NCBI GenBank assembly: GCA_949738465.1
Contig: CATJBQ010000170.1
Location: forward strand, 1-64,000
Length of the DNA: 64,000 nucleotides
DNA from: an uncultured Lachnospiraceae bacterium
Lineage (GTDB): Bacteria; Bacillota; Clostridia; Lachnospirales; Lachnospiraceae
Direction: 5' to 3'
Below the pieces are notes generated by a model. It searched no databases. It was not told where the DNA came from and worked only from the letters and a program-made list of their open reading frames with translations. The position numbers and the translations under genes are program-made. Positions 9,023 through 26,195 of this stretch are shown piece after piece; within the stretch, counting starts at the first letter, position 1, and the number at the start of each line of letters is the position of its first letter.

Positions 9023-9102
9023 TGACCCATAGCTGGGGCCAGCAGGTCGTCCGGTTTTATGATCCGGACGGGAATCTGATTGAGGTGGGAACGCCTAGGT
9101 GA
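8863..9102 (+). pseudogene. 5'-truncated VOC/glyoxalase-family gene
   Basis: Alternate frame reads DAKIWREFTGREIIPKNNASELYFEERDIAGFVEKLERYSEATGEPVRYVNRLMTHSWGQQVVRFYDPDGNLIEVGTPR*, ending with the FYDPDGNLIEVG signature. Confidence 0.8.
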
Positions 9103-9170
9103 CATTGAAATGGGATAGCTGTAAATGACAGGCAATTATAGAACCATAAAAGTGTTTTCAACGTACACAG

Positions 9171-9199
9171 TTGATTACTCCAATAAAATATGGTAAAAT
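9171..9199 (+). promoter_or_regulatory. Promoter of 34-aa peptide transcript
   Basis: TTGATT-17 bp-TAAAAT. Confidence 0.7.
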
Positions 9200-9308
9200 T
9201 TTTTTGGGTGCTGCCAAGATGGTAGGCGGTTAGCCCTCTGCGGAGGGACTGTGACCCTCTGTTTACATAGAAACCTGAAAAGGAATCTTTGAAAGGAGGG
9301 CTAAGTGG

Positions 9309-9413
9309 ATGTTGACGATTGAAGGATTAATGGCAGTGATAAGTTTGTGCATCGCTTGCTTCGGTCTCGGATACGCCATCGGAAGCAAGGATAATAATAA
9401 AACACAAAAATAA
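9309..9413 (+). CDS. 34-aa putative holin-like / type I toxin peptide
   Basis: MLTIEGLMAVISLCIACFGLGYAIGSKDNNKTQK, single TM helix with charged tail; GAAAGGAGGG RBS 8 nt upstream; not in ORF track because short. Confidence 0.75.
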   Translation: MLTIEGLMAVISLCIACFGLGYAIGSKDNNKTQK

Positions 9414-9447
9414 CCGCCCCGGTCTGCTAAACTGAGCGGTTATTTTT
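9406..9447. terminator. Bidirectional terminator overlapping the toxin stop codon
   Basis: Perfect 12-bp stem AAAAATAACCGC / GCGGTTATTTTT. Confidence 0.85.
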
Positions 9448-9493
9448 GACCAAACATTTATCGGGCTAGCTGTCTATCGGCAGCACCTATTCT
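9406..9493 (-). ncRNA. Putative antitoxin RNA convergent to the toxin mRNA
   Basis: Minus-strand promoter just upstream, terminates at the shared hairpin; ends estimated. Confidence 0.55.
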
Positions 9494-9499
9494 GTTTAT

Positions 9500-9528
9500 A
9501 ATATACCATATCGAATTGAAATATGCAA
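9500..9528 (-). promoter_or_regulatory. Promoter of putative antitoxin RNA
   Basis: Minus strand TTGCAT-17 bp-TATATT. Confidence 0.65.
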
Positions 9529-9568
9529 GAATTATAAAAAAATATAGTAATCCGGAAAAGAGGAACTT

Positions 9569-10270
9569 ATGCCAGAAAAAATCATGGTGGTAGACGACGA
9601 GGCAGCCATTGCCGACCTGGTGGAGGTCTGCCTGAAAAACGAAGGCTATCAGGTCTATAAATTTTACAACGCAAAAGATGCCCTGAGCTGTGTGGCGCAG
9701 GAGGATCTGAGTCTGGCGGTCTTAGACGTGATGCTGCCGGACATGGACGGCTTCGCGCTGTGCCAGAAGATCCGTCAGGAGCACTTTTTTCCTATTATAA
9801 TGCTGACGGCCAAGGTGGAGGCGGTGGACAAGATCACCGGCCTGACCATGGGAGCCGACGATTACGTCACCAAGCCCTTCCATCCCCTGGAGCTGATCAC
9901 CCGGGTAAAATCCCAACTGCGGCGGTATACCAGGTACAATCCGGCAGATGCCCACGCCAGGGAGGAAGAAAGCGACGAGATCGATATCCGGGGCCTGGCC
10001 ATTGCAAAAAGCAACCATAAATGCACGCTGAACGGCAAGGAGCTGTCGCTGACGCCCCGAGAATTTTCCATCCTGTGGTATCTCTGCCAGCGGCAGGGGA
10101 AGGTGGTGTCTTCGGAGGAGCTTTTCGAAGCCGTATGGGGCGAAAAATACCTAGACAGCAACAACACCGTGATGGCGCATATTGCCCGTCTGCGGGAGAA
10201 GATGCAGGAGCCGGCCCGCAGGCCGAAATACATCAAAACAGTGTGGGGGGTGGGGTACACCATTGAATAG
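9569..10270 (+). CDS. OmpR/VanR-family response regulator
   Basis: Receiver domain (VDDE, VLDVMLPDMDG, TAK, KPF) plus winged-helix C-terminus. Confidence 0.95.
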   Translation: MPEKIMVVDDEAAIADLVEVCLKNEGYQVYKFYNAKDALSCVAQEDLSLAVLDVMLPDMDGFALCQKIRQEHFFPIIMLTAKVEAVDKITGLTMGADDYVTKPFHPLELITRVKSQLRRYTRYNPADAHAREEESDEIDIRGLAIAKSNHKCTLNGKELSLTPREFSILWYLCQRQGKVVSSEELFEAVWGEKYLDSNNTVMAHIARLREKMQEPARRPKYIKTVWGVGYTIE

Positions 10271-11381
10271 AGACAGAAAGAGGCGGGAATACAGCCGGGT
10301 TTCCCGCGGGATTTTTACACGGTATATCCTGTCGCTGCTGGGCGTCCTTCTGATCTTAACCGGCGGCTATGTGGCGGCAGAATTCATGTTCGGCGGCGTT
10401 ACCTGGTACCGGGAAGACCCGCTCTACTGGTTTTTGAAGGCAATCCAGGCGCTGGCCCCATATATCATCCTCCTGGTCATGCTGGCCAGTGGCATTTTAT
10501 TTGCCCGCCGGGCGATCCGCAAGCCCCTGGGGTATCTGGATGAGGTGATCGAAGCGGCAAAAAGCCTGTCTGCGTCTGCAGAAACGCCCATCGAGCTGTC
10601 CCAGGAGCTGGTGGATATCCAGAATGAATTGAACCTGGCCCGGGAGCAATCCCTCAGGAACGCCAGGGCAGCCCGGGAAGCAGAGCAGCGGAAAAATGAC
10701 CTGGTGGTATACCTGGCCCATGACCTGAAGACGCCCTTAACCAGCGTCATCGGCTATCTGACCCTTCTCATGGAGGAGCCCCAGATCTCAGCGGAAATGC
10801 GGGCACGCTACACCGGAGTGGCCCTGGAAAAAGCGGAACGGTTGGAAGAACTGATCAATGAATTTTTTGATATCACCAGGTTTAACCTGACCACCATGAA
10901 TTTGGAGTTAGACAGAACTAACTTAAGCCGGATGCTGGAGCAGATCACCTATGAGTTCCAGCCGGTATTGAAGGAGAAGGCGCTGGAATGGAAGCTTGAG
11001 ATTCCGCCGCAAGTGGAGATTTTGTGCGATCCCGACAAGTTGGAGCGGGTATTCGACAACCTGATCCGCAACGCGTTAAACTACAGCTATCCCGACAGTG
11101 ATCTGCTTCTGACCGTAAGGCCAGGGCCGGAAACAGTAGAGATCTCCCTGAAAAATCATGGAAAAACCATATCCGCCGACAAGCTGGAGCGGATCTTTGA
11201 GCAGTTTTTCCGGCTGGATACGGCCCGCCGCTCCTCCAACGGAGGCTCCGGGCTGGGACTCGCCATTGCAAAAGAGATCGTGGAGCGGCATGGCGGCAGG
11301 ATCTGGGCTAAGAGCGCCGACGAGACCATTGTGTTTACGGTAGAGCTGCCGGTTGGGCTGCAGAAGAAACAGGAGGTATGA
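10263..11381 (+). CDS. VanS-like sensor histidine kinase
   Basis: H box YLAHDLKTPLTSVIGY, N/G boxes NLIRNALNYS, GGSGLGLAIAKEIVERHGG; TTG start overlapping RR stop is inferred. Confidence 0.93.
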   Translation: MNRDRKRREYSRVSRGIFTRYILSLLGVLLILTGGYVAAEFMFGGVTWYREDPLYWFLKAIQALAPYIILLVMLASGILFARRAIRKPLGYLDEVIEAAKSLSASAETPIELSQELVDIQNELNLAREQSLRNARAAREAEQRKNDLVVYLAHDLKTPLTSVIGYLTLLMEEPQISAEMRARYTGVALEKAERLEELINEFFDITRFNLTTMNLELDRTNLSRMLEQITYEFQPVLKEKALEWKLEIPPQVEILCDPDKLERVFDNLIRNALNYSYPDSDLLLTVRPGPETVEISLKNHGKTISADKLERIFEQFFRLDTARRSSNGGSGLGLAIAKEIVERHGGRIWAKSADETIVFTVELPVGLQKKQEV

Positions 11382-11382
11382 G

Positions 11383-11985
11383 ATGCTGGAAGAAATGTTA
11401 GCCCAGGCCCGGGAGGAAGAGACAGATCTCCGGGACCTGCGGATCGAAAATAAAGTGATTGAAAACCAGGATTTTTCCAAGCTGGATCTGGTAAAGGTGG
11501 TATTTTCCAGATGCCGCTTTGTGGAATGCGAATTTGTGGGTACCGGATTTTACCAGGTGGCCCTGGAACATTGTGATTTTTCTAACAATAATTTTGAGAA
11601 CAGCTACTGGAAGGATTGCCGTATTACCGGATCGAAGGGGGACGGCGCCCGGCTGATCCGCAGCCATATGAAGCAGACCGTCTGGCAGGACTGCTCCCTG
11701 TGCTACAGCAATTTTACCATGGCGGTACTGGAGCAGGTGCAGATTTCCGATACCGTCATGAAGATGAGCGCCATGCCCGAATGCCGTTTCAAACAGCTTA
11801 CGCTGCACCGCGTTTCCCTGGAAGAAGTGGACTTTTTTAAGACCAGCCTGAAAAATCTGGATGTATCCGATTGCGATATCCATGGCATTAGCGTGTCGGA
11901 CAGCTTCCGGGAGCTTTCTGGCATGAAGATCGATGCGCTGCAGGCGGCGGAGCTGGTGCATCTGCTGGGAGTGCGGATCGTGTGA
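11383..11985 (+). CDS. Pentapeptide-repeat protein
   Basis: Repeats such as FSRCRFVECEFVGTGFYQVALEHCDFSNNNFENSYWKDC. Confidence 0.85.
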   Translation: MLEEMLAQAREEETDLRDLRIENKVIENQDFSKLDLVKVVFSRCRFVECEFVGTGFYQVALEHCDFSNNNFENSYWKDCRITGSKGDGARLIRSHMKQTVWQDCSLCYSNFTMAVLEQVQISDTVMKMSAMPECRFKQLTLHRVSLEEVDFFKTSLKNLDVSDCDIHGISVSDSFRELSGMKIDALQAAELVHLLGVRIV

Positions 11986-11986
11986 G

Positions 11987-12009
11987 GGCGTTGTTTCAAA
12001 CGCCTTTTT
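11987..12009 (+). terminator. Rho-independent terminator
   Basis: GGCGTT-loop-AACGCC followed by TTTTT. Confidence 0.7.
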
Positions 12010-12116
12010 CCTTAAAGCTTTTTTCTTATAAGCATAGAATTTCATCAAAAAATTTCTTCTATTTCAATCCAAATCGTATATACTATGTTTACAATCACAC
12101 ATAGGAGGAACAAAAG

Positions 12117-12959
12117 ATGAATGCTGTATTAAGCTACGAAACCATAAGGGAGCTGGAAAATTTTATGCGGGAGGAGGAAAAAAGCGAAGCCACCATCAGC
12201 AAATACTGCCGTGACGCGCGGGCCTTCATCCATTACGCCAAGGAAGGGAACGGGATTACAAAGGAACTGGTAATCGCCTACAAAAATCATCTGGGAGAAC
12301 GGTACGAGATCAGCAGCGCCAACTCCATGCTGGCCGCCCTCAACTACTTTCTGCGGTTTCTGGGCAGAGAGGACTGCACCGTGAAGTCCTTCAAGGTACA
12401 AAAAGAAGCTTTCCGCCACCGGGAGCGGGAGCTGACACGCAAGGAATATGAGCGTCTCTTAGAGACAGCGCGGCAAAACGGAGACGAACGGCTCTGTCTG
12501 ATCATGCAGACCATCTGCGCCACCGGGATCCGCATCAGCGAGCTGGCCTTTATCACGGTGGAATCCCTTCACACCAGGCGCACCCGGGTGATGCTCAAAG
12601 GGAAGACCCGGACTGTGCTGCTGCCCTTAGAGCTCTGCAGGAAGCTTAAAAATTACATTAAAAAAAGGAGCATTACCACCGGAAGCGTGTTCGTAACCCG
12701 CAGCGGAAAGCCCATGGACCGCAGCAACATCCTTCATGCCATGAAGAAGCTCTGCGAGAAGGCAAAGGTGGCGTCCACGAAGGTCTTCCCCCATAACCTG
12801 AGGCATCTGTTTGCGGTTACATTCTATAAGGTAGAAAAGGATATCTGTCACCTGGCCGATCTTCTGGGCCATTCGAATATCAATACCACCAGGATCTATA
12901 CGCTGGTAAGCTGCGAGGAACAGGAACGGCAGCTAAACGGATTATGTCTGTGCCGATGA
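12117..12959 (+). CDS. Tyrosine recombinase / phage-type integrase, candidate invertase
   Basis: Catalytic motifs CATGIRISELAF, HNLRHLFA, LGHSNINTTRIYT; adjacent to a pair of 27-bp inverted repeats. Confidence 0.93.
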   Translation: MNAVLSYETIRELENFMREEEKSEATISKYCRDARAFIHYAKEGNGITKELVIAYKNHLGERYEISSANSMLAALNYFLRFLGREDCTVKSFKVQKEAFRHRERELTRKEYERLLETARQNGDERLCLIMQTICATGIRISELAFITVESLHTRRTRVMLKGKTRTVLLPLELCRKLKNYIKKRSITTGSVFVTRSGKPMDRSNILHAMKKLCEKAKVASTKVFPHNLRHLFAVTFYKVEKDICHLADLLGHSNINTTRIYTLVSCEEQERQLNGLCLCR

Positions 12960-13007
12960 AGACAGGCAGGGAATCTGCATTAAGGATTTTCTGACCAAAA
13001 ATAAAAA

Positions 13008-13034
13008 TACCTCATAATGTTGATTATGCGGTAT
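13008..13034 (+). repeat. Left inverted repeat of putative invertible element
   Basis: TACCTCATAATGTTGATTATGCGGTAT, exact reverse complement of 13324-13350. Confidence 0.97.
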
Positions 13035-13064
13035 CAGCGTGACATATTTTCAATCATCTGATTC

Positions 13065-13093
13065 ATTATAATACATACCCCAATGAAATTCAA
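13065..13093 (-). promoter_or_regulatory. Strong promoter inside invertible element, pointing away from the pilus operon
   Basis: Minus strand TTGAAT-17 bp-TATAAT. Confidence 0.75.
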
Positions 13094-13155
13094 CTGATTT
13101 TTGGAATTATATGCTGTAAATAAGTAAAAAAGTGGCATCCACCGTAATATCTGCC

Positions 13156-13185
13156 TGCCCTATGGAGTATCCAGGGGCATTTTTT
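13156..13185 (+). terminator. Terminator within invertible element facing the pilus operon
   Basis: TGCCC...GGGCA hairpin with inner TGGA-GTA-TCCA followed by T6 on plus strand only. Confidence 0.65.
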
Positions 13186-13201
13186 AATTTGAATACAGTA
13201 T

Positions 13202-13230
13202 ATCATATGCTACGTCAAAGAAAGCGTCAA
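13202..13230 (-). promoter_or_regulatory. Second promoter inside invertible element
   Basis: Minus strand TTGACG-17 bp-TATGAT. Confidence 0.6.
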
Positions 13231-13323
13231 AGAAAAGGAGAAAAAAAGGTTTTTTACAAAAAACTTTTTCATTTTCTTCTTTTATCATTGCGCCCTGGGG
13301 GATTCTGGGGCCAGCCGGCCGTA

Positions 13324-13350
13324 ATACCGCATAATCAACATTATGAGGTA
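13324..13350 (-). repeat. Right inverted repeat of putative invertible element
   Basis: ATACCGCATAATCAACATTATGAGGTA, exact reverse complement of 13008-13034. Confidence 0.97.
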
Positions 13351-13379
13351 AAGGCGTGGATCCGGGAGTGAGGAGCGAT

Positions 13380-13922
13380 ATGACAGAGAAGGAATTACAC
13401 AGGCTCCGCAGGCAGGATCTGCTGCAACTGCTGCTATCACAGGGCAAGGAGGCGCTGGCGCTCCAGACGAGGCTTTCGAATACAAGCTCCGCTCTGATAC
13501 AGACCAAGGCCGGTTACGACAGGCTCAAGGAGAAGCTGAATGAGAAGGATACCCTGATTGAGAAGCTGAAAAGCAGGCTTGACGCCAAGGACGCCCGAAT
13601 CGGCGAACTGAAGCGGGAGATGGATGCCCTGCGGCTTGGCAGGAAGATCCAGATTGAGGAAGCAGGATCCATTGCGGAAGCCGCATTAAGGCTGAACGGG
13701 ATTTTTGAAGCTGCCCAGAAGGCGGCGGACCAGTATCTCTATAATCTGCAGCGGATGAGCGATGAACGGGTGGCGGACCTGTTTGACAGCGAGGATTTTC
13801 TGGAACTGTCAGAGCAGGAAACCGGCGAGGGCTTTGGGGAATCGGAGGATGATTTCCTGGACCTGGAGGAAGAACTTTCGGATCTTGGAGAAGAGAAAGA
13901 ACCGAGGAATGCAGATGAGTAA
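13380..13922 (+). CDS. Coiled-coil protein at the head of the pilus operon
   Basis: Predicted coiled coil (LKEKLNEKDTLIEKLKSRLDAKDARIGELKREMDAL), acidic C-terminus; RBS aggag. Confidence 0.75.
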   Translation: MTEKELHRLRRQDLLQLLLSQGKEALALQTRLSNTSSALIQTKAGYDRLKEKLNEKDTLIEKLKSRLDAKDARIGELKREMDALRLGRKIQIEEAGSIAEAALRLNGIFEAAQKAADQYLYNLQRMSDERVADLFDSEDFLELSEQETGEGFGESEDDFLDLEEELSDLGEEKEPRNADE

Positions 13923-14520
13923 AAAAGAGAGCGGGAAGCCGGATGCGAAAAATCTGGAAAGCCTGGATCTTAAGGCCGTGGAAGCGGCGCTTAAGAAGGA
14001 GCAGTACAGACGGGGCTACAGCAAAGCCCTTCGGAGTACCATCTTTTCCCTGATTGTGGTGGCAGCCGCGGCAGTGCTGGTGGCGGTGTTGATCCTGCCG
14101 GTGCTGCAGATCAGCGGAACCTCCATGACGGAGACCTTACAGGATGGGGACATCGTGGTGGCAGTCAACAGCAAGAATTTTAAAACCGGCGATGTGATTG
14201 CATTTTATTACAACAACAATACCCTGGTGAAACGGGTAATTGCCTATGCGGGGGATTGGGTTGATATTGACGAGGATGGGAATGTGACGGTCAACGGGGA
14301 ACTACTTGACGAGCCTTATGTATCCGAGAAAGCACTGGGCGAATGCAATATCGAACTTCCCTACCAGGTGCCGGATGGAAAATGCTTTGTGATGGGAGAC
14401 CATCGTGCCACCAGCATCGACAGCCGCAATACGGCGGTAGGCTGTGTCGGCAAGGACATGGTTGTCGGCAAGATTGTGTTCCGGGTGTGGCCGCTCAGTG
14501 AGTTTGGGATAATCAACTGA
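13915..14520 (+). CDS. Signal peptidase I
   Basis: N-terminal TM, GTSMTETLQDGD Ser motif, VKRVIAYAGDWV Lys motif, MGDHRATSIDSR. Confidence 0.9.
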   Translation: MSKKESGKPDAKNLESLDLKAVEAALKKEQYRRGYSKALRSTIFSLIVVAAAAVLVAVLILPVLQISGTSMTETLQDGDIVVAVNSKNFKTGDVIAFYYNNNTLVKRVIAYAGDWVDIDEDGNVTVNGELLDEPYVSEKALGECNIELPYQVPDGKCFVMGDHRATSIDSRNTAVGCVGKDMVVGKIVFRVWPLSEFGIIN

Positions 14521-14583
14521 TAGATGCAGGAAGGGGCTCATAGAGGCCCGGGCTGGACGAGAGGAATGAAAGGAGGAAACGCA

Positions 14584-17500
14584 ATGAGATCTTTGATTAC
14601 GAAACAGGCGGAAAGATTCTTGCGTGAACGAAAGAATTATAAGCGCTGGCTGGCAGTGTTTACCTGTCTGGCGGCAATGGTGGTTCTGGGCACGGTGATG
14701 GTGCTGCGCTACACCGGCACGGCAATGACCGGGAATCCCCAGTGCGGACAGGAGGAACATTCCCATATGGAGGAATGCTTTTCGGAGGTTCTGGTCTGCG
14801 GTCAGGAAGCATCGGCAGAGCATGAGCACATGCCCGAATGTTATGAGAAGCAGTTGATCTGCCAGAATGAAGAACATGTCCATATCGATGCATGCTATGC
14901 GCAGAATGAGGATGCCACAGCACCGGAAGCGGATGATACCGAGCCTTGGGCGGATGATAAGGTACAGCCAACAGAAGTAGCGGGGGAACAGGATCAAGTG
15001 GAAGCATCAGCAGAGCAGGAGGCAGAGCCTGGCGATGGCAGGCATATTCTGGCCATGCAGGGCGAGGATTATATGGTAACCGTATCCTATGGCGATGAAG
15101 CGGGGATCCCGGAAAATGCAGAACTGCTGGTGAAAGAAATCCTGGCGGACAGTGCCGAGTATGAGGCTTATTACCAGGAAATGCTTGCGGCTATGGCACA
15201 GGAAACAGCCGCAGCAGGGGAAGCGGCAGCAGAAGAGGATGTTGAGGTATCATTTGCCAGATTTTTTGATATTACATTTTTGGCAGATGGCGTGAAGGTG
15301 GAACCGGCGGCTCCGGTAGATATCAAAATCAGTTATCCGGATACCATCCAGCTTGGCGAGAACGAGGCAGCGTCTGTCGTACATTTTGCAGAAGAAGGAA
15401 CAGAGGTTCTGGATGCGGAAGTTGTAGAAAAGGAAGAAGGAAGCGATTTTGAATTTACCCAGGAAAGCTTTTCGGTAACCTCCACTGTAATCAGCAAAGC
15501 CCCCGGCAAAGGGGGATCGCTTACGGCCAGCGGCAATGGTTATAAGGTTACCGTCACCTATGGGAAAAACAGCGGTATTACGAAGAATGACAGATTGGTT
15601 GTAGAAGAAGTAAAAGATAACGGGGAAAACGAAAACAACAGCTACCGGAAATATCTGAACAACAGCCAGGGCGCGATCAAGGAGAAGACCAAGCACAATG
15701 CGGAAGAAGTAAAGTCTTCGTTTGCCAGGGTATTCCAGATCTCCATTGAAAACGGCAGCGGCCAGAGAGTGTCCGTCAGTGATGTGGATGTTCAGATTCA
15801 ATATACCACTCCGGTTAAGGCGGAGACGGCAGGGGTAGCTGCAATGGTTCTGAATACAGAGGATGGCGGGGAAGTTCTGGGAATGGAAACGCTCGCGGCA
15901 GGACAGTCGGTCACCACCTTCTCCGGACGCCAGAGCTTTTCGACGGATGCTCCTAATGTGGCAACTACCATGCTGGCAGATGTATCGGCATTGGCGGATG
16001 GGGAAGGCAGCGGTACTCCGGAGGATTGGACGGATCTGGATAAGGACGGAACCATAGACGGAGTGAATGGCAGTGAGAAGAATGACTGGCAGATTGTAGC
16101 GGGAAAATATGAAGGAAATAGCAATAAGACAGTATATTCCGACGGCGACAGGATGGTGCGCGTCCAGAAGAACGTGATACCGACAGATGTGGAAAATGAG
16201 TTTTATGTGTATTTGTCGGTGGATATAAAAACATTAATAAGGAATGTGTTTAAACCAGAACATTTCAAGGCTCTTACGCATGTCGATAATGTAGAAGATG
16301 GAGCTATAACAAACTGGAGTAAGGAAATAGAGGTTGCATTTGAAAATATACCTAATAATTGGAGCAAAGGAACTTATATTGTCAAATCGCCTTATGGCGA
16401 AATAGTTTATGAGGGCGAGATTGGATGGAATCAGGCAAATAACGTAGTGCTTATTTATGTTGTTGAGGATACCCCCGGCAATAAAATAGCATATCAGATG
16501 GGAGGAATGAACAAGGGCGACAGAAATAAAGAAATTACGTTGTCTACAAGTGCCTGGAATGCGATAAAGAAAGAATTTAAGACATCAGTTGCCTTAAATG
16601 AAGTGAACGATCAGATGGGTGCTTATATTATTTTCGAAGGTTGTCAATATGTAGATGGGGTGGTTTCTCCCTCAGAGGTGCAAACAATCCCTGGCGGAAC
16701 GATAAAGTGGACACCAAAAGCCAAAGAGACTGAATGTCAGACTGAAAATTCGATAGGTTCGGACGGGAAAGTGGAAGGGATCTGGTTCAAAAATGTTGCG
16801 GAACTGCTCTATAAAGTAAAGCTTGATGTCACGAAGCCTGGCTTTGAAAGCTGCGGAGCTGAAGGCGTGGAAGATATGATTACGAATGCACCAAAATATC
16901 CGGTGAATCAAGACGCAACGTTAAAGTACCAGATCAAAGATGAAGAAGGAAAATTAGGTGATGTTAAGGAAGTACATTTCCCAATTCCCGAAGTCCGCGG
17001 CTTGCTCTACGACATTCCTCTGAAAAAGACGGATCTCGATGAAACAACGAAGCTGCTTCCAGGTGCGGAATTCATCTTGAAGGATGCCGATGGAAAACAG
17101 GTTGGAGATAAAATAACAACCGCTGACGGCGATTTGAAGGGAACAGCCACTTTTGCAGGGCTTCCGTGGGGAACCTATACGATCTGGGAGATGAAAGCTC
17201 CTGAAGGCTATCAGAGTGTTGGAAAAGATGGAAAATCGGTTGGCCAGGTTACGGTTTGCTATACGGAGGAGCGCAGTAAATTGCTGCCGGGAGAAGATGG
17301 CCAGGTAGACTTTTCATCGATGACTTTGCGGCCCGAAAGCGCCGGCCATATGGTTTATTATTCTTCCATCACGCAAAAGGAAGCCGGGGAAGAAGAACGG
17401 GTGCCGGTTACAATTACAAATGAAAAGATTCCTCCCATCCTACTGGAAAAGAAGTGGGAAGGCGATGAGGAAACGCCGGAGCTTCGCCCGGATGAGGTAA

Positions 17501-18261
17501 CGTTTATTGTCAGCGGGATTGATAAGAGTACCGGTGAACAAAAAGAGGTAGAAGTAACGTTCGGCAAGAATGACGAGAACCAATGGCGCAAGCAGTGCGA
17601 TGATATTTTTGAAGCAGAGACATATACCGTTACAGAAAAAGCGGACGGAACGCTGAAAAATTATACGGCATCTGGTTGTGTAGAGACAACAGAAACAGGA
17701 ACTACAGGGAAAACGGTCCGGGTTTATACCATCACCAATACGATGGTAGAACAGCAGGTGCTGATCTTGAAAAGGAGTATGGAAAGCGGTGATGAAGCGT
17801 CGTACCTAAATGGGGCGGAATTTTCGCTGTATGATACCGATCCCGGGGAAGAAGGCGCAGAACCTGTTGAGCCAATGGAGGGGAAGAAGAATCTGGTTTC
17901 AACTAAAGTTGGGGAACAGGATGGCGTCATTTACACGGACACTCTGCCGGCAGGAACATACTGGCTGGTAGAAACAAAGGAGCCGGATGGCTACGACAAG
18001 TTAAAAAAACCGGTTAAGATTACCGTTGACGCCGATGGAATCAAGGTTCTTGATCCGAATTGGCCAAATGCAACGGAACAGGTGATCGAAGTTGAAGATG
18101 GTAAATACACCATTTCCATTTTAAACAGCGCGGGATATGAGCTTCCGGAAACCGGAGGTCCTGGAACAATCATGTATACATTCGGTGGACTCGCAATCAT
18201 AGCAGCCGGCCTGGTGTACGCTCTTAGTATGAAGCGTAAGCAGGAAAGGGGGTATCACTAA
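14584..18261 (+). CDS. Large LPXTG-anchored adhesin / pilus tip protein with SpaA/Cna-B-like domains
   Basis: Signal/TM N-terminus, repeated GAEFxLxDxDG ... GTYxxxExxAPEGY modules, C-terminal LPETGG + TM + RK. Confidence 0.9.
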   Translation: MRSLITKQAERFLRERKNYKRWLAVFTCLAAMVVLGTVMVLRYTGTAMTGNPQCGQEEHSHMEECFSEVLVCGQEASAEHEHMPECYEKQLICQNEEHVHIDACYAQNEDATAPEADDTEPWADDKVQPTEVAGEQDQVEASAEQEAEPGDGRHILAMQGEDYMVTVSYGDEAGIPENAELLVKEILADSAEYEAYYQEMLAAMAQETAAAGEAAAEEDVEVSFARFFDITFLADGVKVEPAAPVDIKISYPDTIQLGENEAASVVHFAEEGTEVLDAEVVEKEEGSDFEFTQESFSVTSTVISKAPGKGGSLTASGNGYKVTVTYGKNSGITKNDRLVVEEVKDNGENENNSYRKYLNNSQGAIKEKTKHNAEEVKSSFARVFQISIENGSGQRVSVSDVDVQIQYTTPVKAETAGVAAMVLNTEDGGEVLGMETLAAGQSVTTFSGRQSFSTDAPNVATTMLADVSALADGEGSGTPEDWTDLDKDGTIDGVNGSEKNDWQIVAGKYEGNSNKTVYSDGDRMVRVQKNVIPTDVENEFYVYLSVDIKTLIRNVFKPEHFKALTHVDNVEDGAITNWSKEIEVAFENIPNNWSKGTYIVKSPYGEIVYEGEIGWNQANNVVLIYVVEDTPGNKIAYQMGGMNKGDRNKEITLSTSAWNAIKKEFKTSVALNEVNDQMGAYIIFEGCQYVDGVVSPSEVQTIPGGTIKWTPKAKETECQTENSIGSDGKVEGIWFKNVAELLYKVKLDVTKPGFESCGAEGVEDMITNAPKYPVNQDATLKYQIKDEEGKLGDVKEVHFPIPEVRGLLYDIPLKKTDLDETTKLLPGAEFILKDADGKQVGDKITTADGDLKGTATFAGLPWGTYTIWEMKAPEGYQSVGKDGKSVGQVTVCYTEERSKLLPGEDGQVDFSSMTLRPESAGHMVYYSSITQKEAGEEERVPVTITNEKIPPILLEKKWEGDEETPELRPDEVTFIVSGIDKSTGEQKEVEVTFGKNDENQWRKQCDDIFEAETYTVTEKADGTLKNYTASGCVETTETGTTGKTVRVYTITNTMVEQQVLILKRSMESGDEASYLNGAEFSLYDTDPGEEGAEPVEPMEGKKNLVSTKVGEQDGVIYTDTLPAGTYWLVETKEPDGYDKLKKPVKITVDADGIKVLDPNWPNATEQVIEVEDGKYTISILNSAGYELPETGGPGTIMYTFGGLAIIAAGLVYALSMKRKQERGYH

Positions 18262-18375
18262 TTCCCCCCAGGGGAAACCACAATGATGCGCCTGGTACTA
18301 AAAGCAATAGATGTAACAAATGTAACATAAAGTAATGCAACTCGCAATATGCGGACAAAGAAAGGAATGAAAGAT

Positions 18376-20088
18376 ATGAAAAAGATGTGGAAAAGAGTTT
18401 CTGCTGTCTTATTGGCCTTTGCAATGTGTATTATGACACTGCCTTTGACAGCGGCTGCAGCAACTGGCGATTATGAGCTGAAAATCAATACGCATGCAGG
18501 TCATACCTATAAGGTATATCAGCTTTTAACGGGTGATGTATCTACTCCGAATGGGGAGAATGAGGTGAAGCTGTCTAATGCAAAGCCAGGAAGTGCTGTT
18601 GCTTCTGGTACAACGGCTGAGGCAATTATAAGTGAATTGCAGAATAAGACAGGGATTGAGTTAGGCAATGCAGCAAAAGCATTGATTGCAGAAGATGCAG
18701 TACCGGTTGCAGAAATTGTGAATACCATTGCTGAAGATGGTACGGTAACAGTAAAAGTTAATGGTGAAGATATCACGGGTACATCAGCTACGATTACTGT
18801 GCCAGGTGGATATTATGTCATCGTTGATAGTTATACTGGTTCCAAACCTGATTCTGACCCGACAACAACAAATGACCCTACTACTACGATTTCTGCTACT
18901 ATGGTCAGAGTATTAGGTGATCAAGAGGTTACCCCCAAGGACTCTACTGTTCCGGATAAGCCTGGAAAGACTGTAAAAAAGGGTGAAACAGAAAATGTTA
19001 AGACAGTTTCAATCGGTGATGAATTGACATATACCCTGAGCGGTACGATTCCTGATATGGATCAATACAAAGAATATAAATTCCAATTGGTTGATACCAT
19101 GTCTAAGGGGCTGATGCCTACGGTAAAGGATAGTTTTACAGTTGAATTGACGAACGCAAATGGAGAAAAAACAGGCAATACGGTTACTTTTATAACGGGT
19201 ACCACTACAGATCAAACAACTGGAAAGACAACTATAACATTTGTATTGGAGAATGCAATTCAATATAAGGATTATAAGGGAGAAGCTTTTAAATTTGATT
19301 ACACTGCGGTTGTAACAAAGGATGCTGAACTGGAGTCAACAGGAGCTGGAGCTTTGACAAATAGCGTAAAAGTGGAATATTCCAGCAATCCGGATCAGGG
19401 TGGTACCCTTGATGGGGAGACCGCAGGTACAGATGTAACAGTATACACTACGCAACTGGTAATTAACAAAGTAATTGGTGGAACTGCAACTCCACTGGCG
19501 GGCGCCGAGTTTAAGCTTGAGGGCACAGGCGTGAATGTAGGATATGTGACTGGCTGGGCATTTGTTGAAGATGAAAATGGAACATATTATAAGCTGGTAG
19601 ATGGAGCATTTACGACGGTTGAACCAAATGATAAGAATAAAAATCAGTATGCTGATACGGATACAAAATATGTAAAAAAGGAAGTAAATAAAGCTGAGTA
19701 CACTAAGGCAGATACGAAAGCGCAGGCATTTGTAGACGATAAGACAGGCAAGGTAACGTTTACCGGCTTAGGAGAGGGAACCTACACGTTAAGTGAGATT
19801 ACTACTCCGGATGGCTATAATACGATAGATCCGATTGAAATTACGATTACCTTTGATGAGAAAACAAAGACTTTTTCGGCTACTACGGCAAATCCTGAGG
19901 CTGATAAAGCGGGGCAACCAGCTACTTTAACGGTAGATTTAAATGGATATAATGTTGAGAACTTTGCTGGCTCTCTTCTTCCTTCCACCGGTGGCATCGG
20001 TACAACGATCTTCTACGTGGTAGGCGGTATCCTGGTTGTAGCAGCAGTGGTTCTTCTTGTAACCAAGAAGCGCATGAACCGTGCATAA
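18376..20088 (+). CDS. Major pilin, isopeptide-forming fimbrial protein
   Basis: Signal peptide, GAEFKLEG, GTYTLSEITTPDGYN E-box-like motif, C-terminal LPSTGG + TM + KKR. Confidence 0.9.
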   Translation: MKKMWKRVSAVLLAFAMCIMTLPLTAAAATGDYELKINTHAGHTYKVYQLLTGDVSTPNGENEVKLSNAKPGSAVASGTTAEAIISELQNKTGIELGNAAKALIAEDAVPVAEIVNTIAEDGTVTVKVNGEDITGTSATITVPGGYYVIVDSYTGSKPDSDPTTTNDPTTTISATMVRVLGDQEVTPKDSTVPDKPGKTVKKGETENVKTVSIGDELTYTLSGTIPDMDQYKEYKFQLVDTMSKGLMPTVKDSFTVELTNANGEKTGNTVTFITGTTTDQTTGKTTITFVLENAIQYKDYKGEAFKFDYTAVVTKDAELESTGAGALTNSVKVEYSSNPDQGGTLDGETAGTDVTVYTTQLVINKVIGGTATPLAGAEFKLEGTGVNVGYVTGWAFVEDENGTYYKLVDGAFTTVEPNDKNKNQYADTDTKYVKKEVNKAEYTKADTKAQAFVDDKTGKVTFTGLGEGTYTLSEITTPDGYNTIDPIEITITFDEKTKTFSATTANPEADKAGQPATLTVDLNGYNVENFAGSLLPSTGGIGTTIFYVVGGILVVAAVVLLVTKKRMNRA

Positions 20089-20162
20089 AGCAGCATGACA
20101 AACCCGAAATAGTTCGAACCACTCCATTGCTGGTTGAACTTCGAAGCGATATTTTCAAAACC

Positions 20163-20260
20163 CCGGGGAGGGGGAAGCTTCCTTTCCCCGGAATACCGCA
20201 CAAGCTGGCACCTTCCCGTGGTGTGCGGTGAGCAACGGGTAAAAGAACATACGTTCTTTT
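20163..20260 (+). other. Highly structured pilin-sortase intergenic region
   Basis: Stems CCGGGG/CCCCGG, ACCGCAC/GTGCGGT with possible pseudoknot CCCGT/ACGGG, and AAAAGAAC-ATAC-GTTCTTTT. Confidence 0.6.
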
Positions 20261-20327
20261 GCGCCGGCCAACGTCAGCGAAGAGCCCAAAACGCTCAAAA
20301 ACAGAAAGCAAACTGTCAGGGAAGCCT

Positions 20328-21302
20328 ATGAAAGCAGAAAAGAACCAGGATAAAAAGGATAAGAAAATCAGAAAGAAAAAGAAAAAAGGAGTGTCCCTAT
20401 CCACCATCATCCTATTGGTGATCCTTTTGGCAGGATTAGGAGTAATGCTTTATCCTACAGTCAGTGATTACTGGAATTCCTTCCATCAAAGCCGGGCGAT
20501 CAATAGCTATGATGAGATCGTAGCCGGATTGGATGAAGCAGATTATGAAGCGCTGTTTGAAAAAGCAGAGGCCTATAATGAACATCTGAGCAGCCTTGCG
20601 GCGCCCTTTTCCCAGGCGGATACCCTGGCAGAGGAATATTACAGCGTCCTGGATGTGGCGGAAAACGGGATTATCGGCTATGTTACAATCGAAAAAATCG
20701 GTGTAGAGCTGCCGGTTTACCATGGAACCAGCGATGCGGTTCTGAATGTGGCAGTGGGGCATCTGGAAGGCTCCCATCTTCCCATCGGTGGGGAAAGCCG
20801 TCACAGCGTGTTATCGGCCCACCGTGGTCTGCCTTCCGCGAAGCTGTTTACCAACCTGGATAAAATGGAAATCGGGGATATATTTACGATTACCGTGTTG
20901 AACCAGATGTTAACCTATCAGGTGGATCAGATTTTAATTGTGGAGCCGGGCCAGTTGGAAGCGCTGAATATTGTTAAGGGCAAAGATTATTGTACGTTGA
21001 TGACATGTACCCCTTATGGTGTCAATTCCCACCGCCTCCTGGTGCGTGGGACGCGGATTGATAATATTCCAGGTACGGTTGTGGTACATAAGGAAGCCAC
21101 ACGTATCCCGACCTATATTGTAGCGCCGGCGGTAGCCATTCCCATTGTGTTCCTGCTGTTAATTGTCCTTTTGATCATATACCGGAAAAAACCGGAAAAA
21201 GTGACCACCAGGGATATCATGGATCTGAGCCGGAAGCTGCAAAAGGAGCAGGCGGAGGAAAGGCAGAAGGAAAAGGAGGAGCAGACCGATGAAACGAGCT
21301 GA
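20328..21302 (+). CDS. Class C (pilin-polymerising) sortase
   Basis: N-terminal TM, VGHLEGSHLPIGGESRHSVLSAHRGLP, TLMTCTPYGVNSHRLLVRGTR, C-terminal TM. Confidence 0.95.
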   Translation: MKAEKNQDKKDKKIRKKKKKGVSLSTIILLVILLAGLGVMLYPTVSDYWNSFHQSRAINSYDEIVAGLDEADYEALFEKAEAYNEHLSSLAAPFSQADTLAEEYYSVLDVAENGIIGYVTIEKIGVELPVYHGTSDAVLNVAVGHLEGSHLPIGGESRHSVLSAHRGLPSAKLFTNLDKMEIGDIFTITVLNQMLTYQVDQILIVEPGQLEALNIVKGKDYCTLMTCTPYGVNSHRLLVRGTRIDNIPGTVVVHKEATRIPTYIVAPAVAIPIVFLLLIVLLIIYRKKPEKVTTRDIMDLSRKLQKEQAEERQKEKEEQTDETS

Positions 21303-21346
21303 GAAACCCTTTTACAAAATATATCGCAAAATAAGGAGGAGACGCC

Positions 21347-22540
21347 ATGAAAGATAAAAAATATTTGGCTGTTGGAAAGAAAAAGATTTCCCTGATTGCT
21401 CTGGCACTGGTGTCCGTAATGCTGTTAAGCCTGCCAGGACAGGGTATTGGCAGGGCTAAGGCAGACCCCATTGACCTGGAGATTCCCTGTTCGCTGACTG
21501 TACAGCCGGGAGACATGGCGAATCGGGAAGAACTGGCAGAACTGAAAAATGAGGATGTGGTGATCGACTTATATAAAGTGGCCGGCGCCAAAAAAGTGCC
21601 TGGCTATGATACCTATGAATTTGATTTTGGAGAAAACAACCCTTACGGAGCGCTTGCCCGGATGCTGGAAGGGAAAGAAGCAGATTACAGGGCGGCAGCG
21701 CAGGCAGCGGCAGAAATTACATTTACAAAGGATGATAACGGCAGCTTTAGCCACGCAAGCATAGATGCGGGTCTTGTGCAGAAGAATCTGGCTTCCGGGA
21801 CGAAGATTGAAAACCTGGAAAGCGGCCTGTATCTGCTGGTGGCCAGAAGCCCGAAGCTGGCAGAGGCCAGCGATTATGTGACGGAGGTTACTGTTAAGGG
21901 CAGCGAAGGCCAGGCGGATTTTACACAGATTGCAACGATTGCCCATTCGGATCACTATACCTATACATTCCTTCCGGAGCTGATTGCACTGCCGACCAAG
22001 GACGCAGTTATGGTAAATGGGGAAAACCTGGTGAACACGGCCAATCCCGGGGATTGGATTACAGACCTCAACGTGACCTTGAAACCGCAGCCGGGGCCCA
22101 GGTATGGGGACTTACAGATCCGGAAGAACCTGGAAGGCTACGGCGGGCAGGAAGCGTCCTTCGTATTCCAGATTGAAGCGTATACGGCGGATCCGGCAGT
22201 GGAGCCTGATGCAGAGCTTGTTTACAGTGATGTCAGGACGATTCAGTTCGGGGGTGAAGGCAGCCAGGAACTGAAGCTAAGCGGCCTGATCCCGGTAGGA
22301 TCTTATGTACTGGTGACGGAGGTATATCCGGGCCCCTCATATCGGTTGGACGGGGCGCAGACACAGGACGTGGTCATTCCTGTTCCGGAAAATGGAGCGG
22401 CCGGGTTGGTAGAATTCACCAATATTTATCAGGGAACCACCACAAGCGGCGGCGTCATTACCAATCATTTTGAATACCATGAAGAAAATACAGAAACCAG
22501 AAACGCAGAGGAAGCCGGCTGGGAATGGACCCAGCAGTAA
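21347..22540 (+). CDS. Secreted pilus-associated protein (minor pilin-like)
   Basis: Signal peptide, VDLYKVAGAKKVPGYDTYEF opening and Cna-B/DUF5979-like C-terminal domain; no LPXTG. Confidence 0.7.
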   Translation: MKDKKYLAVGKKKISLIALALVSVMLLSLPGQGIGRAKADPIDLEIPCSLTVQPGDMANREELAELKNEDVVIDLYKVAGAKKVPGYDTYEFDFGENNPYGALARMLEGKEADYRAAAQAAAEITFTKDDNGSFSHASIDAGLVQKNLASGTKIENLESGLYLLVARSPKLAEASDYVTEVTVKGSEGQADFTQIATIAHSDHYTYTFLPELIALPTKDAVMVNGENLVNTANPGDWITDLNVTLKPQPGPRYGDLQIRKNLEGYGGQEASFVFQIEAYTADPAVEPDAELVYSDVRTIQFGGEGSQELKLSGLIPVGSYVLVTEVYPGPSYRLDGAQTQDVVIPVPENGAAGLVEFTNIYQGTTTSGGVITNHFEYHEENTETRNAEEAGWEWTQQ

Positions 22541-22555
22541 GGAGGGTGATCGAAG

Positions 22556-23077
22556 ATGAAGTATAAGAACATAATCCTGGCTGCCACGGCCTGTATGCTG
22601 GTTCTGTCTGCCGGGGCAGGCAGTGCCTGGGCATATTTTACCACTTATACGGAGGCTAGCGGCGGCTATGCCATCCGGCTGGGCAGCCAGTCCACAGCGG
22701 AAGAAGAAGTGGGAGATTGGACCAAGCATGTCGCCGTTTCCAATGATGCGGCTTCCAGCCAGCCGGTCTATATCCGGGTGAAGGCGTTTGCGGGAAGTCA
22801 GAATCCCTTGACATACAGCAGCGAAAGCGGCAAATGGAGCAGGGGCGAAGAAGAATACTATTATTACAATGATATTGTAGAACCGGGCGGAAAGACAGAG
22901 GTACTTGACATTAAGATTGACGGTGTGCCTGTTGAAGTAGAAGACGGCGACAGCTTCAACGTAGTCGTTGTCTACGAAAGCACCCCGGTCTGCTACCATG
23001 AGGACGGTACGCCCTATGCCGACTGGTCCAGGATCTTAGATACAGGAAGTACAACGGAAGGAGGCGTCACAGAATGA
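22556..23077 (+). CDS. Small secreted TasA/camelysin-like protein
   Basis: Signal peptide followed by AYFTTYTEASGGYAIRLGSQ, beta-rich. Confidence 0.6.
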   Translation: MKYKNIILAATACMLVLSAGAGSAWAYFTTYTEASGGYAIRLGSQSTAEEEVGDWTKHVAVSNDAASSQPVYIRVKAFAGSQNPLTYSSESGKWSRGEEEYYYYNDIVEPGGKTEVLDIKIDGVPVEVEDGDSFNVVVVYESTPVCYHEDGTPYADWSRILDTGSTTEGGVTE

Positions 23078-23835
23078 AGAAGCTGAAAAGGTTTATTTCC
23101 ATGCCGGCTGTGACCGTGGCAGCCTTTGTACTGGCAGCGGCGCTGCTTCTGACCTCCGGCATCGGAGGCGCAAGGGCGGCTTTGACCTACTATTCCGAGA
23201 CCTATGCGGCCCGGGTGGCCATGTCCAGTATCGGCGTTACCCTGAATGAAAACGGTGCGGCCATTTCCTGCCGGGACTACGACAAGGACGGGGAATGGAA
23301 CCATGTGGACGGCGCTCTCCTGGAAGGAATGCTGGGGGAAGATACCAGTGTAAAGCTTGGAAAAAAATACAAAGAGGAGCTTAGCGTTACCAATTCCGGC
23401 AGCATCAGCCAGTATGTCAGGGTCAGCATCCACAAATACTGGACGGACGCGGACGGGAAGAAATGCCGGGAGGTATCGCCGGCCATGATCGACTTAAACC
23501 TGGTAAACCAGGATACCCACTGGATCGTCGATCCGGAGGCGTCTACCGAAGAACGGACGGTGCTGTATTACAACCGGGTGCTTGGGCCTGGAGAGACGAC
23601 GCCGCTGTTTGCCGATACCTTAGCGATCAAGGAAGAGGTGGCCGCAAGGGTAACCCAGACAGAAACAAAGCGGGATGGTGGGACCGTTATCACCACAATG
23701 TATGATTATGACGGCTATCAGTTCTGTGTGGAGGCTAAGGTGGATGCCGTGCAGGAGCACAACGCAGAGGACGCTATTTACAGCGCCTGGGGCCGTCTGG
23801 TGTCTGTCAGCGACGGCACACTGAGTCTGAAGTAG
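23074..23835 (+). CDS. Secreted TasA/camelysin-like protein
   Basis: Signal peptide ending GGARAALTYYSETYAARVAMSSIGVTLNENG; overlaps previous gene. Confidence 0.6.
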   Translation: MKKLKRFISMPAVTVAAFVLAAALLLTSGIGGARAALTYYSETYAARVAMSSIGVTLNENGAAISCRDYDKDGEWNHVDGALLEGMLGEDTSVKLGKKYKEELSVTNSGSISQYVRVSIHKYWTDADGKKCREVSPAMIDLNLVNQDTHWIVDPEASTEERTVLYYNRVLGPGETTPLFADTLAIKEEVAARVTQTETKRDGGTVITTMYDYDGYQFCVEAKVDAVQEHNAEDAIYSAWGRLVSVSDGTLSLK

Positions 23836-23848
23836 GGAGGGGAAGACG

Positions 23849-24643
23849 ATGAAAAAGAAATTATACAGCCTGGCCCTTGGGGCCCTTCTGCTGATTAGCG
23901 TTCCCTTGACCGCTCACGCGGAGACGACCCATGGCGGTCCCTGGAGTGTTATTTTTACCGAGGAAGCCAAGATGGAGAGTGCCTTTTCCAGCGCGGAGAT
24001 GGCAAATGTGATCTCCGGCATGCAGCCGGGGGATGAAACGGTGGCGACACTGGAGCTTTCCAATAAAAACAGCTCTGCCACCGACTGGTACATGACAAAC
24101 AAGATTATAAGCAGTCTGGAGGATTCCGCTGAGGGAGCAAGCGGCGGAGCCTACACCTATCTGCTGACCTATACCGGCCCGGACGGGACCCAGACCGTGC
24201 TTTTTTCCAGTGATACCGTCGGCGGTGAGGGAACAGAGGGCGGAGAGGGCCTGCACAGTGTTTCCGGTGCCCTGGAAGACTATTTTTATCTGGGCACCCT
24301 GGCAAACGGCCAGAAGGGTATTGTAACGTTGACCGTGGCCTTAGACGGGGAGACCCAGGGCAACAGTTACCAGGATACTCTGGCAGATTTGCAGATGAAT
24401 TTTGCGGTGGAACTCAGCACCAATAACAATAACGGGAATCCCGGAAACGGGCCCGACGGCAATAATCCGGGAGGCGGTCAGCAAGGCGGCTCCGGCGGCA
24501 GTTCTACGCGGGTAGTAAAGACCGGAGACGAGACCAACCTGGGGCTTTTGATTGGCCTTGCGGGAGCCAGCGGCGCGCTGCTTATGATGTTCGGCTTTTT
24601 CGGTGTGGCCCAGAGGAAAAAGCAGAAAAAGGAGGTGCGGTGA
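23849..24643 (+). CDS. Cell-wall-anchored protein with LPXTG-variant sorting signal
   Basis: Signal peptide, Gly/Asn-rich spacer, VVKTGDETNLGLLIGLAGASGALLMMFGFFG + basic tail. Confidence 0.7.
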   Translation: MKKKLYSLALGALLLISVPLTAHAETTHGGPWSVIFTEEAKMESAFSSAEMANVISGMQPGDETVATLELSNKNSSATDWYMTNKIISSLEDSAEGASGGAYTYLLTYTGPDGTQTVLFSSDTVGGEGTEGGEGLHSVSGALEDYFYLGTLANGQKGIVTLTVALDGETQGNSYQDTLADLQMNFAVELSTNNNNGNPGNGPDGNNPGGGQQGGSGGSSTRVVKTGDETNLGLLIGLAGASGALLMMFGFFGVAQRKKQKKEVR

Positions 24644-24644
24644 G

Positions 24645-25640
24645 ATGCGTTTTGGAAGGAAGGCGGTAAAGGCAGCCGGGATGTGCCTGGCGTTGTGTCT
24701 GACGGTGCTTTCGGCATTTTCTGTCCGGCTGGATGCAAAAGCGGCCGGAGATTCTTATACGTATACCGTACGTATTTTCGCGGGAGCCCAGGGTACCATT
24801 GACGGGAAGGAGATGGTGGCCTATGAAGGACTCACCGATACGGAGGCAGACCGGGTGATCTTTAACCAGAACCGGGTGGCGTTGAAGGATAACAGCAAGT
24901 ATTATATCCGGGGAATCCGTAAGAGCGGCCGTGACAATGATGAAATCGTAGCGCTGGCGTCCTTTGTGGCGACGGAGGATGCGGATTACGTAGTTGCCTA
25001 TGGGATCCTGAGCGATGCGGTGATGTATACTGTGGAATATGTGGATGCGGCCGGGAATGTCCTGGCGCCCAGTGAGACCTACTATGGTAATGTGGGAGAC
25101 CGGCCGGTGGTTGCATTTACTTATATCGAGGGTTATCAGCCCCAGGCTTATAACCTGACGGGAACCCTGGATCGTGATGCATCCAACAATGTGTTCCGGT
25201 TTACGTATACGCCTGTGGCCCAGCCTCAGGAGCCAGCTCCGGCGCCTACGCCTGCACCGGTTCCGACACCGACGCCCGCGGCTCCGGAGGAACCGGCTCC
25301 GGAAACGCCAGCTCCGGAGGAACCGGTAACAGATCCGGAGACAGAGATCGAGGATGACCCGGTACCCCAGACAGAGCCGAATGAGCTTGAGGACATCAAC
25401 GATCCGGATGTGCCTCTGGCAGACGGATCCGGGCCCATGGAAGTTCCGGTTTCTCCTAACGGCTTTGCCCGTGTAATCGGGAATCTGCCGCTGGCAGCCA
25501 AGATCCTCATTGGTCTTGCGGCGGTTGCGGCTGTGGGCACGGCCTGGTTTTTCCTGGTGCGGCGCAAAAAGGCGGCTGCTACGGCAGACGGCAGGGAGCC
25601 GGCAGAAAAGCCGAAGAAGCGGAAAGATTCCGGCAAATAA
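24645..25640 (+). CDS. Membrane-anchored surface protein with MucBP-like domain and Pro-rich stalk
   Basis: Signal peptide; VEYVDAAGNVLAPSETYYGNVGD...GYQ; P/T/E-rich stretch; C-terminal TM + RRKK. Confidence 0.7.
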   Translation: MRFGRKAVKAAGMCLALCLTVLSAFSVRLDAKAAGDSYTYTVRIFAGAQGTIDGKEMVAYEGLTDTEADRVIFNQNRVALKDNSKYYIRGIRKSGRDNDEIVALASFVATEDADYVVAYGILSDAVMYTVEYVDAAGNVLAPSETYYGNVGDRPVVAFTYIEGYQPQAYNLTGTLDRDASNNVFRFTYTPVAQPQEPAPAPTPAPVPTPTPAAPEEPAPETPAPEEPVTDPETEIEDDPVPQTEPNELEDINDPDVPLADGSGPMEVPVSPNGFARVIGNLPLAAKILIGLAAVAAVGTAWFFLVRRKKAAATADGREPAEKPKKRKDSGK

Positions 25641-25658
25641 TCGTGTAAGGGGAAATAT

Positions 25659-26195
25659 ATGAGCAGTGAGACGCCGCCACAGGAGCGGCGTCCCGGGCAG
25701 AAGGGCAGGGGCATTGTTCCGGCCCTTTGCAACATCCTGGGGACGTTGATTCTGATAAGTGCGATATTGGTCTGCCTGCCGGCCGTTGCGCCGCAGGTGT
25801 TGGGATATGAGGTTTTTTGTGTGGTCAGCGGCAGCATGGAGCCGGCGATACCGGTGGGAAGCGCGGTTTTTGTAAAAAACACGCCGCCGGAGGAAATCGG
25901 GAAAGGCGATGTGATTGCTTTCAGGAGCGGTGATTCTGTGATTACCCATCGGGTGACAGCCAACCATAAGGTGGAAGGGGAGTTTTCCACGAAGGGTGAC
26001 GCCAACGAGGGGGAGGACATGAACCGGGTACCTTATGAGGCATTGATGGGGGAGGTTGAACACCAGTTTCCTATGCTGGGCGATCTTCTGACTGTGCTGA
26101 CCAGCACATTGGGAAAAGTGTATATGTTGTGTTTTGCGGCCTGCGGCGCCATGCTGAACATCCTGGCAGGGCGTCTGCGGGCGCGCAGGAGATAG
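25659..26195 (+). CDS. SipW-like signal peptidase I
   Basis: VVSGSMEPAIPVGSAVFV, KGDVIAFRSGDSVITHRV, TKGDANEGEDMNRV; C-terminal TM. Confidence 0.9.
   Translation: MSSETPPQERRPGQKGRGIVPALCNILGTLILISAILVCLPAVAPQVLGYEVFCVVSGSMEPAIPVGSAVFVKNTPPEEIGKGDVIAFRSGDSVITHRVTANHKVEGEFSTKGDANEGEDMNRVPYEALMGEVEHQFPMLGDLLTVLTSTLGKVYMLCFAACGAMLNILAGRLRARRR

Follow-up and report, generated by a model that had tools for sequence, protein, structure and literature searches.

The question raised by this locus is whether the short stretch of DNA between a tyrosine recombinase gene and a sortase-pilus operon is a switch that turns pilus synthesis on and off in an uncultured member of the Lachnospiraceae. In the window, by which is meant the whole stretch of 64,000 nucleotides that was analysed, perfect 27-bp inverted repeats (27 of 27 bp, 100% complementary) enclose 289 bp containing a minus-strand sigma-A-like promoter; the left arm, at 13008-13034, reads TACCTCATAATGTTGATTATGCGGTAT, and the right arm, at 13324-13350, is the exact reverse complement of the left. 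Each arm is itself palindromic and capable of forming a hairpin. Between the recombinase ORF and the left arm there are 48 bp, and 29 bp separate the right arm from the first ATG of the operon (13380), gaps that bear out the placement of the two genes given in the preliminary description. The repeat is unique to this switch in the 3.88-Mb assembly, with no other copy even when three mismatches were allowed, and a search of viral contigs with the core of the repeat for an inverted copy from a second strain gave no match. With a probability of about 90%, what was caught here, in the OFF orientation, is a recombinase-linked promoter inverton responsible for phase variation of a sortase-dependent pilus operon. 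The features on which this reading rests are listed in Table 1.

Table 1. Features of the switch and the adjoining pilus operon, with coordinates in the window.
Feature	Coordinates	Strand	Evidence or remark
280-aa tyrosine recombinase, presumed to be the switch invertase	12117..12959	+	PF00589 E 3.7e-29
U-tract TTTTTATTTTT flanking the left arm on the outside; predicted to terminate OFF transcripts together with the arm hairpin	12997..13007	-	Sequence, hairpin, family asymmetry
Left inverted repeat / recombination site	13008..13034	+	TACC(T)CATAAT-GTTG-ATTATG(C)GGTAT
Invertible segment, 289 bp, drawn OFF	13035..13323		Promoter orientation; inversion seen in family
Switch promoter TTGAAT-17-TATAAT, faces recombinase (OFF)	13065..13093	-	Family-typical position; sequence-level prediction
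Predicted intrinsic terminator TGCCCT..GGGGCA + T6	13156..13185	+	Would stop recombinase-to-operon read-through in OFF orientation
Second promoter-like site TTGACG-17-TATGAT	13202..13230	-	Not where the family promoter lies; may be a chance match
Right inverted repeat / recombination site	13324..13350	-	Perfect reverse complement of left arm
RBS (GGAGTGAGGAG) and ATG of first operon gene, outside the segment	13365..13382	+	Sequence
First operon gene, encoding a coiled-coil-like protein of 180 aa	13380..13922	+	Same place in L033, L135, L051, L201
Signal peptidase I	13915..14520	+	TIGR02227 E 3e-34; PF10502
1245-aa SpaA-domain LPXTG protein, probable tip/ancillary pilin	14524..18261	+	PF17802; LPETG C-terminus
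Backbone pilin, SpaH/EbpB-like, isopeptide D2 domain, LPSTG	18349..20088	+	PF16569, PF00746; TIGR04226 E 1.6e-15
Class C (pilus) sortase	20259..21302	+	NF033745 E 2.9e-82, above cut-off
Five further secreted-type proteins and SipW-like signal peptidase (25659-26195)	21347..26195	+	All kept after the sortase in L201; first two also in L135, L051

The catalytic residues R139, K163, H226, R229, H252 and Y261 of the recombinase were invariant in an alignment of 15 family members. The closest curated models were of the Xer type, all of them below their cut-offs, and the models for DNA invertases of the FimB/FimE type were not reached (NF007370, 40 bits against a cut-off of 221; NF007371, 35.6 bits against 222). 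A profile search returned 80 relatives with 50-67% identity, nearly all from genomes of Clostridia. In a near one-per-genus sampling of the family to which the window belongs, 37 of 299 genomes contained a close relative (E 1e-75 or better), and in five congeneric genomes only distant recombinases were found, the best with an E value of 2.6e-16. The type of repeat site tracks this recombinase family, and the gene in the window is intact and adjacent to the repeat; the enzyme encoded at 12117-12959 is presumed to be the cognate site-specific recombinase of the switch. Upstream of the recombinase gene, at 9569-11381, are genes encoding a response regulator and a histidine kinase, with a 210-aa protein in between.

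Across the family the recombinase gene is accompanied by a conserved module: the palindromic site CATAAT-N4-ATTATG begins 0-100 bp past the gene and is followed by a segment of 200-400 bp with one outward promoter ~60 bp from one end. An inverted-repeat score of at least 18 was obtained for 65 of 83 family loci, compared with none of 21 unrelated tyrosine recombinases and 2 of 341 random stretches. With a score of at least 20 within 560 bp, the figures were 53 of 83 family loci, none of the 21 regions downstream of unrelated tyrosine recombinases and none of 341 random stretches of comparable loci; the repeat pair originally described for the window was exact in coordinates, match and interval. 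The arm consensus was ACC[AG]CATAAT-N4-ATTATG[TC]GGT, in which all 54 aligned arms had the C of CATAAT and the central four bases showed no strong preference. The best promoter was located 45-85 bp from a segment end at 64 of 77 loci, as against 132 of 770 shuffles. Elsewhere in the family the module precedes genes for LRR, Listeria-Bacteroides-repeat, dockerin, collagen-like and other large proteins.

Several recombinase-plus-switch loci were present in Hungatella hathewayi WAL-18680 (L063, L064, L075, L081, L082, L094, L161-L168), all callable ones being OFF in the assembly, and eight in G177, which is probably the same genome. In Fournierella massiliensis (L093) the inverted repeat is ~103 bp and takes in the last part of the recombinase gene, so that the 3' end of this gene is present a second time, inverted, across the switch. 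The recombinase contigs of L061, L103, L110, L115 and L181 end in the site or a few bases away; contig ends within 500 bp numbered 14 downstream and 5 upstream.

Comparison of related loci gave evidence that such segments invert. The flanks of L071 and L076 are collinear, 83% identical on the recombinase side and 73% on the operon side, whereas the segment matches in the opposite orientation (74% identity), its inversion bounded exactly by the repeats; the promoter call flips as well. In L084 and L095 the recombinase flank is again collinear and the segment, 80% identical, is inverted, and more opposite-strand segment matches exist among the family loci. These sequence comparisons indicate that both orientations occur in nature for this recombinase family, in support of the earlier proposal of a phase-variable invertible promoter; from the family we infer that inversion also takes place in the species of the window. 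The likely crossover point was indicated by a comparison of 20 arm positions per locus at 29 loci re-examined with an independent arm finder. The 4-nt centre was identical in the left and right arms at all 29 loci (0 of 116 positions differed) while the arms differed at 47 of 580 positions, and the centres varied between loci. Matched centres between diverging arms are as expected of the overlap region of a tyrosine recombinase, which would place the crossover of the window element in or around GTTG. Selection for unlike centres within a genome, which would block crossing between switches, was considered and found unsupported, since 1 of 35 within-genome pairs shared a centre compared with 4 of 371 pairs between genomes. 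Pairs of switches with an identical centre in the same genome (L072/L077, L171/L174 and L104/L107) were observed, and exchange between these loci would therefore be possible.

The orientation of the window element was read from its promoters. Two minus-strand promoters had been described, and both are present with 17-bp spacers; only that at 13065-13093, with 57 bp between the end of its -10 element and the outer end of the arm, has the family-typical position, and that at 13202-13230 was rejected as a family feature. Three promoter-like sites were found in the segment against 1.6 expected in shuffles, so that the promoter evidence from the window is weak by itself and becomes strong only through the family-conserved position. 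Since the promoter at this position faces the recombinase, the element was evidently assembled in the OFF orientation, as first proposed, and the promoter prediction scores agree (11.3 in the direction of the recombinase, 2.7 in that of the operon). The assembly shows a single orientation. By the same prediction, the promoter faces the recombinase (OFF) at 56 family loci and the downstream operon (ON) at 15, with 6 unclear.

The two sides of the element differ in their predicted terminators. For the left arm of the window element a hairpin of -10.3 kcal/mol is predicted, and the sequence that comes after it is UUUUUAUUUUU. Over the family, the first 10 nt out of the site contained a mean of 4.95 T on the left, towards the recombinase, versus 2.49 on the right, towards the operon, with a paired-test p of 8.5e-8 that is optimistic because the loci are related. 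Predicted terminators comprised of a hairpin and U-tract numbered 52 on the left versus 19 on the right at 76 loci, and those built from the site hairpin itself 30 versus 5. Hairpin terminators were also predicted inside the family segments in both directions (29 of 69 and 38 of 69, versus 5 and 4 when shuffled). The asymmetry suggests that transcription in the OFF state would end before it could cross the recombinase gene in antisense, and that ON transcripts would pass the operon side, where there is no U-tract. Whether this holds as a general property of the family is about evenly balanced: the recombination site may double as a one-way insulator, the palindrome with its outside U-tract terminating transcripts bound for the recombinase and the operon-side site letting ON transcripts pass. 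If true, a single sequence would serve as crossover site and one-way transcriptional insulator across a family of Clostridia.

In the proposed mechanism, the Xer-like recombinase would bind the palindromic sites within the two 27-bp repeats and crossover in the 4-nt centre GTTG would reverse a 343-bp element. In the OFF state the promoter would be aimed at the recombinase, with the transcript predicted to stop at the left-arm hairpin and U-tract, and the terminator predicted within the segment would face the operon. In the ON state the promoter would lie at 13265-13293 facing the operon, and transcription would proceed through the right arm, which has no U-tract, to give a ~80-nt leader whose RBS is encoded shortly beyond the segment. 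Pilus expression is expected to change accordingly. The inverted junction at the left flank would read ...AAAAATACCTCATAATGTTGATTATGCGGTATTACGG.

The internal terminators admit another explanation: the switch is real, but its orientation would matter chiefly in deciding whether transcription arriving from the recombinase side is terminated or attenuated, a mechanism proposed for cwpV of Clostridioides difficile, and not in moving a promoter. The predicted terminator at 13156-13185 faces the operon in the OFF segment, and no comparable operon-facing terminator was found in the window segment after inversion; for cwpV the promoter is not part of the segment, and the OFF state is brought about by termination (PMC2784873). 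However, no internal feature of the family is more constant than the strong outward promoter at a fixed distance from the segment end, and internal terminators in both directions look like insulation and not a switch. Control by termination is thus considered unlikely, and promoter inversion is the preferred reading.

That reading assumes an element still able to move. The single assembled orientation, together with the excess of OFF over ON loci in the family, would also be consistent with a locked or decaying element, with relic repeats, a segment that has lost the ability to invert and a pilus operon that is either permanently off or on another promoter. Against such decay are the recombinase with all catalytic residues, the matching spacer, the open reading frames of the operon and the perfect arms, the last because unused sites are expected to diverge; a locked element is accordingly judged very unlikely. 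The palindromic, hairpin-capable arms, of which the left is terminator-like, could in principle be structural, either paired hairpin terminators or the ends of a small inserted element of the MITE type, and not recombination sites at all. The linkage of the repeats to one recombinase family and the locus-specific 4-nt centres matched between arms argue against this explanation, and the exact inversion between the repeats of L071 and L076 largely excludes it, which leaves it a close to negligible probability.

Among known systems, fimS of E. coli is an element of ~314 bp with 9-bp repeats. Like the promoter inverton proposed here, it is an invertible promoter flanked by short repeats that drives a pilus operon and is adjoined by tyrosine recombinase(s), FimB and FimE. 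It differs in serving chaperone-usher pili (type 1 fimbriae) with two dedicated recombinases, whereas the window enzyme is Xer-like. Termination close to the recombinase gene depends on how fimS is oriented (cited in PMC2784873). The RecV switches of C. difficile (flagellar and cwpV) share with the window an Xer-type tyrosine recombinase, short segments upstream of surface genes and a host within the Clostridia. In contrast to the window, recV is not beside cwpV and the cwpV promoter is external (PMC2784873), and the flagellar repeat AAGTT(A/G)CTAT(A/T)TTACAAAAAA (PMC5386303) is without the CATAAT-N4-ATTATG site, so that the window repeats are not of the RecV type. Of the analogies drawn in the preliminary description, that with fimS is therefore apt for the mechanism but not for the enzyme, while that with RecV falls short in both repeat and promoter placement. 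The SZO08560 switch of Streptococcus zooepidemicus (PMC2654543) resembles the window in being Gram-positive with an adjacent recombinase gene, a promoter segment between inverted repeats and a sortase-anchored protein downstream; reverse reads were observed and the reverse transcript heads towards the recombinase. Unlike the window, it has 10-bp repeats (GTAGACTTTA), a ~115-bp segment and a single surface protein, and belongs to another lineage.

The closest counterpart is inverton group 139 with invertase group 35 of the hCom2 gut community, described as 33 invertons, 32 from Clostridia and almost all beside a tyrosine recombinase (PMC11892184). Examples given there have 14-26-bp repeats and a total length of 255-257 bp; flipping was seen in sequencing reads over time and, in one member, depended on surface attachment. 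The window family is probably the same as group 139, the agreement being in size, class and recombinase linkage. The main text of that report names no sortase or pilus cargo, unlike the operon in the window, and describes gut Clostridia as having fewer invertons per genome than Bacteroidota. In Bifidobacterium breve (PMC9187656), also a gut bacterium, sortase-dependent pili are phase-variable between ON and OFF, but through replication slippage in a G-tract with no recombinase. In the open-licence literature, no paper was found on promoter inversion of a sortase-pilus operon or on sortase/pilus invertons in Lachnospiraceae or Hungatella; the phase-variable sortase pili that were found are slippage-based and not based on promoter inversion. 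The anatomical signature of recombinase, CATAAT-N4-ATTATG sites and promoter ~60 bp from one end allows such switches to be listed, and their state read, from sequence.

The operon downstream of the window switch contains the class C sortase and the LPXTG backbone and ancillary pilins that define a sortase-dependent pilus operon. Two more pilus operons of the genome are located beside close paralogues of the recombinase, one on C244 (81%) and one on C173 with C139 (79%), with site centres ACGG and ATTG. The third switch spans two contigs (L034, G000:C173; L135, G000:C139), the operon contig stopping exactly at the inner edge of the repeat. Such a break is what an assembler would make with both orientations present, although it is suggestive only. 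The gene content of a fourth operon (L201, G000:C129, minus strand, ~8000-23483) matches as far as the SipW-like peptidase, apart from a second copy of one signal peptidase. Neither a recombinase nor inverted repeats were detected in the 1.7 kb upstream of L201, which indicates that the switch is separable from the pilus. Three switched pilus operons and a fourth with neither switch nor recombinase in one genome constitute a natural system for asking why only some pili flip. The position of the 21347-26195 cluster directly after the pilus sortase suggests a composite unit of pilus and matrix fibre. Two secreted proteins encoded in this cluster are weakly similar to SipW-dependent proteins of the BsaA type.
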